Below are positions 17,870 through 31,307 of a DNA stretch of 39,231 nucleotides, in pieces. The DNA lies in assembly GCA_017608705.1 (NCBI GenBank), contig JAFCFJ010000012.1, positions 1 through 39,231 of the forward strand, written 5' to 3'. Position 1 is the stretch's first letter, and the number at the start of each line of letters is the position of its first letter. Both the position numbers and the translations under genes were made by a program. The notes under the pieces are model-generated. The model was not told the origin of the DNA. It made no database searches and worked only from the letters and a program-made list of their open reading frames with translations. The DNA comes from Candidatus Pacearchaeota archaeon. Lineage in GTDB: Archaea > Nanobdellota > Nanobdellia > Pacearchaeales > GW2011-AR1.

Positions 17870-19099
17870 TTATTTTTTGAAGAAATCTAATGCTTGCCTC
17901 AGCTCTTCATGTTTTTTGGCATAGCTCTCGAGTTTCTCACCTTGCATTACTGCTTCAATTGCTTGTCTTGCAGCTCTCGCTCCTGCAAACGTGCCTTGTG
18001 GATGCGCATGAATGCCTCCACCCATTTGGATTATGACGTCAGGACCAAAAAAATCCACGAGATGCGGAACATCAAGAGGGGATAAGCCACCAGAAGCAAT
18101 TGGCATTGTCGGTTTCAGCCCGATATCTTCTTTTAGGGCTTCCACGTTCTTTTTTACCTCTTCCTTGCCTTCATGCATCTTGCCAAAGACAGCACCTACA
18201 TGTAATTGGTCTACACCAGCAAGCCTTGCCAGCTTAGCAATCACTTTCATGCTTATCCCTTGATTCTTGTTTCTTGTCAGCGCGGCATGCATTGCTCTAT
18301 GTCCATGAATTATAAGTCTTGTATTCTTGCGCAGGCTTTGTAAAGCAGAGAAGCCACAAGTTATTATGTCAATCATACAGTATCCGTTACCAAGCTTTTC
18401 TACCTTTTCTGCTCTTTCTAGCATCTCAAGTGTTTCAGCTGTCACATTGACAACATACGCCTTCTTCTCTCCAGTTTCGCGTTCAGCTTTTTCTTTAGCT
18501 TTCATTGTGATCCTTAACCTTTTCTCGAACTCGTTGAACTTTTGGCTGGCAAGATTTTCATCATCCTTGACGATATCACAACCACCAAGCCAAGCCTCAA
18601 GAGCTACACGAGCATGATCTTTGGGCTTTAGTCCGAGTTTTGGTTTTATTATGGTGCCTATGAGTGGCCTCTTTTTCACACGCATAACCTTACGTATCCC
18701 CTCTATACCATAATGTGGTCCTTCAAAGCTTTTTACAAATTTTCTTGGCATTGTTATATCCTCAAGCCTCAAACTTTGCAATTCTTTCATGCCAAAAATA
18801 TTGCCTGCCACACTGCTCAACAGGTTAGGAATATTTCCTGGCTCGAATAACTCAATAGGATAAGCTATCTTCGTGATATAGTGTTTACCTTCTTTTCTCA
18901 GAAAGAAAACCTTTGCTGCTAGCTTTTTCACATAACTTTTCTCTGTTTTTACTTCTTGCCACGTGCCTATGCTTGATTCTGCGGCAAGAGCTCCGGCAGC
19001 ACGCTTTGGGTTTTTTGCTTTGAACCTCAATACCGTTATGAGTTCTTGCTTTCGCGGTGAATAGCCAAGACACACATAGTCTTCGTATTTCATTTTCAC
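17870..19099 (-). CDS. rbcL: Ribulose-1,5-bisphosphate carboxylase large subunit, archaeal form III-like
   Basis: GTIIKPKLGL, GGCDIVKDDENL, HGHRAMHAALTR, GAVFGKMHEG (loop 6), SGGLSP, QMGGGIHAHPQGTFAGA: catalytic motifs intact. Confidence 0.95.
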   Translation of the reverse strand: MKMKYEDYVCLGYSPRKQELITVLRFKAKNPKRAAGALAAESSIGTWQEVKTEKSYVKKLAAKVFFLRKEGKHYITKIAYPIELFEPGNIPNLLSSVAGNIFGMKELQSLRLEDITMPRKFVKSFEGPHYGIEGIRKVMRVKKRPLIGTIIKPKLGLKPKDHARVALEAWLGGCDIVKDDENLASQKFNEFEKRLRITMKAKEKAERETGEKKAYVVNVTAETLEMLERAEKVEKLGNGYCMIDIITCGFSALQSLRKNTRLIIHGHRAMHAALTRNKNQGISMKVIAKLARLAGVDQLHVGAVFGKMHEGKEEVKKNVEALKEDIGLKPTMPIASGGLSPLDVPHLVDFFGPDVIIQMGGGIHAHPQGTFAGARAARQAIEAVMQGEKLESYAKKHEELRQALDFFKK

Positions 19100-25503: not shown

Positions 25504-26052
25504 TTAGCACATTGCTCTTTGCAAAAGTCCAGAACGAGAAATTTTGAAGTCAAGTGTTTGTGTTGAAATTGTGCTTCCTTCTCTCTTTATTTTTATTGTA
25601 AACCAAATGTTTTCCTCGGGAGCATCATCTGGAATGGAAACCCTTATTATCTTTTTTGGCGTCTCATCTCCCGGGGCCACTGTTCCGCTCCACTCATCTT
25701 GTATTATCCATCTTCTTAATTCAGATTTCGTTAATCCTGTGCCACCCCAATCTTCGAGTATTATGGAATACTTGGCTTCTCGTTTTGCTTTTATTCCACA
25801 GTAAACTATGTTCATTTTTCCTGGCTCCATTTTTATCGGCTCTCCGGCAGAACCTATACACTGGACCTCTCCTCCTGTCGAACCAAATAATCTATCTATT
25901 TCAGCTGTAACTTTGTCGTTGATATCGCCTGTCAAGCCAATTGCACTACACATAATCTTCCTTACGAAAACCATACCAAGACTAAGTAATGTTACGGCAA
26001 TAACTATAACAACAATCGTGCCTATGCTCAATTCAAGTGCTGCTTTCTTTTT
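25504..26052 (-). CDS. Pilin/flagellin-like membrane protein
   Basis: Likely start at MKKKAALELSIGTIVVIVIAVTLLSLGMVF (26052). Confidence 0.55.
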   Translation of the reverse strand, partial: KKKAALELSIGTIVVIVIAVTLLSLGMVFVRKIMCSAIGLTGDINDKVTAEIDRLFGSTGGEVQCIGSAGEPIKMEPGKMNIVYCGIKAKREAKYSIILEDWGGTGLTKSELRRWIIQDEWSGTVAPGDETPKKIIRVSIPDDAPEENIWFTIKIKREGSTISTQTLDFKISRSGLLQRAMC

Positions 26053-26243
26053 CATTGCAACAGCCGTACAAGCGGTTTTATTCCAAATATTACGAAGAGG
26101 ATAAGCCATAACCATTTGTATAAAATTAGCTGTGGGAACAAAGCAGAGATAAATAGGCCAAGCGAAATCATGCTAAGTTTGCATAGACTCAGATCACAAA
26201 GTGAGAGATTTTTCAAGTTGTTCCTGATTTTCCCCAGACACAT
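26052..26243 (-). CDS. Small two-TM membrane protein
   Basis: 63 aa; LSLCDLSLCKLSMISLGLFISALFPQLILYKWLWLILFVIFGIKPLVRLL. Confidence 0.55.
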   Translation of the reverse strand: MCLGKIRNNLKNLSLCDLSLCKLSMISLGLFISALFPQLILYKWLWLILFVIFGIKPLVRLLQ

Positions 26244-26305: not shown

Positions 26306-26380
26306 TGGTGGGAGCGCCGGGACTCGAACCCGGGACACCGTGGTCTTCAGCCACGTGCTCTCCCCCTGAGCTACGCTCCC
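26306..26380 (-). tRNA. tRNA-Phe(GAA), CCA encoded
   Basis: GGGAGCG TA GCTC AGGGGGA GAGC A CGTGG CTGAAGA CCACG GTGTC CCGGG TTCGAGT CCCGG CGCTCCC A CCA: full cloverleaf. Confidence 0.95.
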
Positions 26381-26481
26381 ATAACGCACGCACGGCTAAG
26401 AGATTTTTAAATCTTTTCAAGAAAACAATATTAACTTACAGCTAACTCACAAGAAAAACCGGCAAGGATTGAGAGGGTCTC

Positions 26482-26494
26482 CAAAAAGAAAAAA
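26482..26494 (-). terminator. Poly-T tract after the RNase P RNA (TTTTTTCTTTTT)
   Basis: Minus-strand T-rich run directly 3' of the P1 closing strand. Confidence 0.45.
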
Positions 26495-26756
26495 CGCGAG
26501 CAGGGATTAGGCCGCCTTCTGTCGTTCTTCCTTTCGGAAAAGAACGTGCCGACATTCGTCTATGCCTCGGAAAGAGTTGCACCAGCCAGGATGGCCGTTT
26601 CATCAAATCTCCTGCTTCATTGCTTCCCGCAAGGTTCATTGCTAGGCAGGAGCTGTGTCGTTTCTGTTCCAGAGCCCTCCCTCGGCAATTCCGGGGGTGG
26701 GCGGACCTTCCTCACTCTCCCTAACGGAGAGCGAGAGTCGGCTCCCCTGCTCGCTT
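26494..26756 (-). ncRNA. rnpB: RNase P RNA, archaeal
   Basis: P1 strands GCGAGCAGGG (26745-26754) and CCCTGCTCGC (26496-26505); GAGGAAGGTCCGCCC, CAGAAACGACACAG, GATGAAACGGCC, GGCATAGACGAATG, ACAGAAGGCGGCCTA conserved-region-like motifs. Confidence 0.88.
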
Positions 26757-26768
26757 GAGCATGACATC

Positions 26769-29546
<2,778 letters not shown>

Positions 29547-29574: not shown

Positions 29575-29648
29575 GAACCCGGGACCTCTGCCTTGCTTGG
29601 TTAATATACATGCAAGGGCAGCGCTCTAAGCCACTGAGCTACGGGCCC
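29575..29648 (-). pseudogene. tRNA-Ala(TGC)-like element, 3'-truncated with insert in anticodon loop
   Basis: GGGCCCG TA GCTC AGTGGCTTA GAGC G CTGCC CTTGCA[TGTATATTAACCAAGCA]A GGCAG AGGTC CCGGG TTC, then no CCCGG or CGGGCCC to close the T stem and acceptor. Confidence 0.75.
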
Positions 29649-29746: not shown

Positions 29747-31156
<1,410 letters not shown>

Positions 31157-31293: not shown

Positions 31294-31307
31294 TTTATAA
31301 ATCTTTC
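31294..31307 (-). promoter_or_regulatory. rRNA operon BRE/TATA promoter
   Basis: Minus strand GCGAAAGATTTATAAAGCC about 140 nt upstream of 16S. Confidence 0.6.

Follow-up and report, generated by a model that had tools for sequence, protein, structure and literature searches.

In the window, i.e. the whole stretch of 39,231 nucleotides that was analysed, the gene encoding the archaeal RNase P RNA (rnpB) directly follows the 23S rRNA gene on the same strand, and comparison with related genomes makes it very probable that rnpB is the 3' cistron of the rRNA operon after deletion of its own promoter, with a processed 5' end and a 3' end located in a T-tract. RNase P RNA, a ribozyme responsible for tRNA trimming, and rRNA are among the oldest cellular RNAs and are normally made as separate transcripts. 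The genome under study is represented by one metagenome-assembled genome (35 contigs, 86% complete, apparently from a single metagenome assembly) that is the sole genome of its genus. The features of the gene region are compiled in Table 1.

Table 1. Features of the 16S-23S-rnpB-tRNA-Phe region, in the order of transcription
Feature	Positions in the window	Strand	Evidence
BRE/TATA box of the rRNA operon, AGATTTATAAA, presumed promoter of 16S-23S-rnpB	31294..31304	-	10.1 bits, rnpB promoter matrix of the relatives
16S rRNA	29748..31150	-	Rfam RF01959, 1251 bits
tRNA-Ala(TGC) remnant in the 16S-23S spacer; canonical 37/38 intron; lacks 3' part of the T-arm and 3' acceptor strand	29575..29648	-	Sequence; Rfam tRNA model with 25.6 bits, under the cut-off
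5' strand of the 23S processing stem plus 23S helix 1	29520..29546	-	Cofold, 27 contiguous pairs with 26769-26795
23S rRNA	26784..29531	-	Rfam RF02540, 2186 bits
3' strand of the 23S processing stem; site of the rnpB TATA box in relatives	26769..26795	-	Cofold; promoter matrix
14-nt junction GATGTCATGCTCAA between stem and P1	26755..26768	-	Sequence; cofold
rnpB, archaeal RNase P RNA	26496..26754	-	Rfam RF00373, 133.4 bits; P1 by MFE fold
T-tract TTTTTTCTTTTT (T6CT5) directly after P1, probable archaeal intrinsic terminator	26483..26494	-	Sequence
BRE/TATA box of tRNA-Phe, AGATTTAAAAA, separate promoter after the T-tract	26404..26414	-	11.5 bits; box 34 nt before the tRNA
tRNA-Phe(GAA), conserved downstream neighbour of rnpB	26306..26380	-	ARAGORN

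The identification of rnpB is based on an Rfam search of the window, in which the archaeal RNase P RNA model RF00373 was matched from end to end (model positions 1-288 of 288) with an E-value of 2e-37. As the score lies far above the gathering threshold of 84 bits, the match is not due to chance, and the RNase P RNA gene assumed at this site in the original prediction was confirmed. The proposed interval, 26494-26790, covers rnpB and extends beyond it into the 3' strand of the 23S processing stem and the terminal bases of the 23S rRNA. The Rfam alignment revealed the conserved core of the RNA, comprising CR-I (GAGGAAGGUCC), ACAGAAACGACAC, AGACGAAUG, CR-V (ACAGAAGGCGGCCUA) and a closing P1 helix, which is formed by 10 bp (GCGAGCAGGG/CCCTGCTCGC) in the MFE fold. 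A single rnpB copy was found in the 35 contigs of the 601-kb, 86% complete assembly. Judged by its sequence, the gene appears intact, with putative catalysis in concert with RNase P proteins; a model search for p30 alone yielded a p30-like ORF as the only RNase P protein candidate, with 24.4 to 28.1 bits and hence below the cut-off of 35 bits. The 3' side of the gene likewise corresponds to the earlier description of a T-tract followed by tRNA-Phe, and T-rich sequences are also present after P1 in most relatives.

To compare the genetic context of rnpB, the RNase P and 23S models were run against 181 genomes of the same family. Full-length 23S and rnpB genes were detected in 69 of these genomes and on one contig in 52 of the 69. 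In 44 of these 52 genomes, rnpB has the orientation of 23S and lies downstream of it, the other eight showing an inverted or upstream position; the distance between both genes in the 44 genomes is at most 1 kb in 10, at most 3 kb in 31 and at most 10 kb in 40 cases (the genome of the window is included in these counts). By our estimate, a gene placed at random in a genome of about 0.8 Mb would have a chance of well below 1% of lying downstream on the same strand within 3 kb. Of 31 relatives examined, 22 have a tRNA-Phe gene downstream of rnpB, in 18 cases on the same strand, and, as judged by eye, a gene for a short putative secreted or membrane protein resembling that at 25504-26115 of the window follows tRNA-Phe in several relatives. 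Since rnpB is usually followed by tRNA-Phe, the gene order 23S-rnpB-tRNA-Phe has been inherited in the family, and the linkage is old. Outside the family, linkage was seen in G055 (488 nt), G034 (about 0.4 kb) and a few other genomes. On contigs G372:C6 and G419:C20 of two relatives, rnpB resides 1-2 kb downstream of 23S on the opposite strand, apparently as a consequence of local inversions.

This synteny comparison modifies the view that rnpB inside an rRNA operon is a non-standard arrangement: as the family has inherited the linkage as such, what is novel is the direct abutment of the two genes together with the loss of the promoter. The gap between 23S and rnpB is shortest in the genome of the window (29 nt), followed by 67 nt in G436 and 134 nt in G468, and extends to more than 30 kb. 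The inherited linkage, this range of gap lengths and the spacer upstream of 23S, which is likewise unusually short in this genome, speak for the reading that the co-transcription is real but neutral, having arisen when genome compaction affected genes that were already neighbours by inheritance, and that it is devoid of regulatory significance; none of the observations speaks directly against neutrality. Such an explanation, to which we assign a slightly better than even chance, is compatible with rnpB being a cistron of the rRNA operon and competes with adaptive interpretations of the fusion.

Moreover, tight 23S-rnpB pairs were sought by an exact-pattern scan of GTDB r220 contigs, in which the sarcin-ricin motif of 23S had to precede CR-I of RNase P RNA by 231-291 nt. 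At the typical distance between P1 and CR-I, the scan covers gaps of up to roughly 30 nt, so that the 67-nt gap of G436 would be missed; the sarcin-ricin and CR-I motifs are present in 15 of 15 and 29 of 32 loci checked, respectively. Among 371 genomes of the phylum, only the window itself was matched, and no match was obtained in viral contigs. The scan also returned 12 stretches from GTDB r220, nine of which were run through Rfam and contained no 23S-rnpB pair (bacterial RNase P without 23S in two, 23S without RNase P in two and neither in the rest), while the remaining three belong to the same Slackia record as one of the stretches checked with Rfam.

To characterize the promoter region of rnpB, an 11-nt matrix was built from the sequences of the relatives at positions -45 to -16 before P1 and applied with leave-one-out scoring. 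A strong BRE/TATA element (AAGTTTAAATA, AACTTTAAAAA or similar), mostly starting at -32, precedes rnpB in 24 of 27 testable relatives, all 24 reaching at least 6.9 bits; the median of the relatives is near 11, a value attained by only 0.3% of random 30-mers from the genome of the window. No box was found in G368, G399 and G449; in the first two cases the Rfam match seems not to start at P1, because the same-genus relatives G488 and G234 possess the box. Based on this spacing and on the usual archaeal distance between TATA box and transcription start, initiation in the relatives would take place at or beside P1, so that their RNase P RNA would require little or no 5' processing. The BRE/TATA element is retained in G436 despite the gap of 67 nt. 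At the equivalent position of the window, the sequence is that of the 23S processing stem (CTCAGCTGAGGAGGTTGCCTCTACCTGTCT), which scores -8.5 bits and contains no TATA box. We are confident of this absence and of the layout of the region.

A promoter specific for rnpB was also searched for within the 429 nt upstream of the gene, including the 3' end of 23S, and the best match to the matrix was a weak one of 6.1 bits at -320, inside 23S. One might argue that this match, or a promoter of a type missed by a TATA matrix trained on relatives, drives rnpB from within 23S and that read-through from the rRNA genes is merely supplementary, as archaeal promoters can be weak or divergent. We consider this improbable, given that the weak match is too distant for the 5' end at P1, that nearly all relatives with a well-called gene have a strong box at a fixed distance and that the same matrix detects strong boxes in front of the rRNA operon and tRNA-Phe of this very genome (10.1 and 11.5 bits), which indicates that it works here. 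With the private promoter gone, rnpB most likely forms the terminal segment of the rRNA transcript, and we are fairly confident that the co-transcription postulated in the original prediction takes place. The gene displays the properties of an rRNA operon cistron, namely the same orientation as 23S, a junction sequence free of any terminator between the two genes and, according to the matrix, the absence of its own promoter.

The cofold of the 23S flanks confirmed a processing stem of 27 contiguous base pairs, and P1, expected some 15 nt behind its 3' strand, begins 14 nt after it, corresponding to 29 nt after the 23S end defined by the Rfam model. At the stem base, the first seven nucleotides of the junction are predicted to be divided between a bulge of 3 nt (GAU, 26768-26766) and a helix of 4 bp (UGAU/GUCA). 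In a canonical bulge-helix-bulge motif, a 4-bp helix lies between two bulges of 3 nt, one on each strand, whereas at this stem base the bulge of the 3' strand and the 4-bp helix are predicted and the second bulge is non-canonical. In the MFE fold of the joined precursor, the processing stem and P1 are both formed side by side. A possible competing hairpin (UGCUC-AAGC-GAGCA), in which the junction would pair with the 5' strand of P1, was rejected, as folds of rnpB with its leader favour P1. The 5S rRNA gene is located on a separate contig. An assembly artefact, in which metagenomic sequence of the rRNA operon was collapsed or joined chimerically and the gap thereby shortened, is likewise improbable. 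In its favour, the fragmented, apparently single assembly and the truncation of the nearby tRNA-Ala and of two other tRNA genes could be adduced; against it, the 27-bp pairing shows the 3' flank of 23S to be genuine up to 14 nt from P1, and the gene order agrees with that of the relatives.

In the mechanism proposed for the 3' cistron, the private promoter of rnpB would have been removed by deletion, leaving a transcription unit composed of 16S, the degenerate tRNA-Ala, 23S and rnpB that would be expressed from the promoter upstream of 16S. One transcript would run through 23S into rnpB and terminate in the T-tract, thereby defining the 3' end of the RNase P RNA, and tRNA-Phe would be transcribed separately from its own promoter. 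As no rnpB promoter is present, the 5' end would have to come from processing, presumably by cleavage of the precursor at the foot of the 23S stem or close to it and subsequent trimming of at most about 14 nt; a cut at the GAU bulge would leave about 11-14 nt ahead of P1. It may reasonably be assumed that rnpB is released by cleavage of the 23S stem, and the output of RNase P RNA would thereby be tied to rRNA synthesis. The stronger claim that pre-rRNA processing is the sole source of an RNase P RNA devoid of its own promoter, with the 5' end of the ribozyme created by the same cleavage that liberates 23S and with tRNA-processing capacity coupled to rRNA synthesis at the level of the transcript, is rated as rather likely. 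We are not confident about the selective reason for the fusion or the identity of the cutting enzyme. The living relatives provide a graded series, ranging from rnpB genes located kilobases past 23S with a promoter, via genes at 67 to 134 nt with a promoter, to the fused and promoterless state, which shows a route for the loss of a private promoter and for the transfer of 5' end formation to rRNA processing. The coupling between the supply of ribosomes and that of tRNA-processing activity thus becomes testable.

Additional observations concern the tRNA genes and the genomic background. The 16S-23S spacers of the relatives contain an intact tRNA-Ala(TGC), and in a relative of the same order (L046, G033) the spacer tRNA-Ala carries an apparent T-loop intron. 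Besides the tRNA-Ala remnant, the genes for tRNA-Arg(TCT) and tRNA-Ser(GCT) (L138, G000:C26:27384-27460, and L142, G000:C9:15749-15819) have a normal 5' part and lack the 3' acceptor strand. Within the 86% complete assembly, each of these isoacceptors is apparently represented by its truncated gene alone, and a search for the missing 3' fragment (CGGGCCC, TCCCGGC) that covered almost all of the assembly yielded no clear candidate. The truncations may be due to split tRNAs, to 3' editing, to pseudogenes or to a missing part of the genome. ARAGORN also reported a tRNA-Phe(AAA) with a 51-nt intron and a doubtful anticodon at G000:C28:12853-12995 (complement), which is probably another intron-bearing tRNA. 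The window, part of an archaeal genome of 0.6 Mb, encodes a RuBisCO large chain of 409 aa (17870-19099, minus strand) that is probably of form III. A DPANN archaeon is suggested by the matches to archaeal rRNA models and by the gene content (a RuBisCO of form III-like size and a small genome of 0.6 Mb with 40% GC). The GC content of 16S, 23S and rnpB (58-60%) is far above that of the genome (40%) and that of 23S in seven relatives checked (42-48%), which suggests a thermophilic member of the family.

Compared with its counterparts in the family, the RNase P RNA of the window belongs to the same RNA family and has 23S upstream, tRNA-Phe downstream and a T-rich 3' end, but a TATA box about 32 nt before P1 precedes the genes of the relatives, whereas the gene of the window lacks a promoter and its 5' end would come from processing. 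According to two reports, archaeal pre-rRNA matures by splicing endonuclease cleavage at bulge-helix-bulge motifs and RtcB ligation (PMC7714728, PMC12918454). The window shares the long stem around 23S with this system, and the genome contains an RtcB-like ORF (C29:14321-15751, by motif only); a crude motif search for a splicing endonuclease (EndA) detected none in the genome, which is 86% complete. The stem base, at which only a relaxed bulge-helix is seen, may represent a less strict version of the motif at which the splicing endonuclease acts on archaeal pre-rRNA, and the 3' piece would be a functional ribozyme and not a discarded trailer. A full-text literature search, with subscription papers mostly outside its reach, revealed no precedent for rnpB or RNase P RNA within an archaeal rRNA operon. 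The nearest precedent in the literature covered comes from Methanothermus fervidus, in which the gene of the 7S (SRP) RNA is closely linked to an rRNA operon (Haas et al. 1990, cited in PMC3035299). In this case another universal structural RNA gene lies near an archaeal rRNA operon, with the difference that it encodes the 7S RNA and not rnpB and that its arrangement is described in PMC3035299 solely as close linkage.
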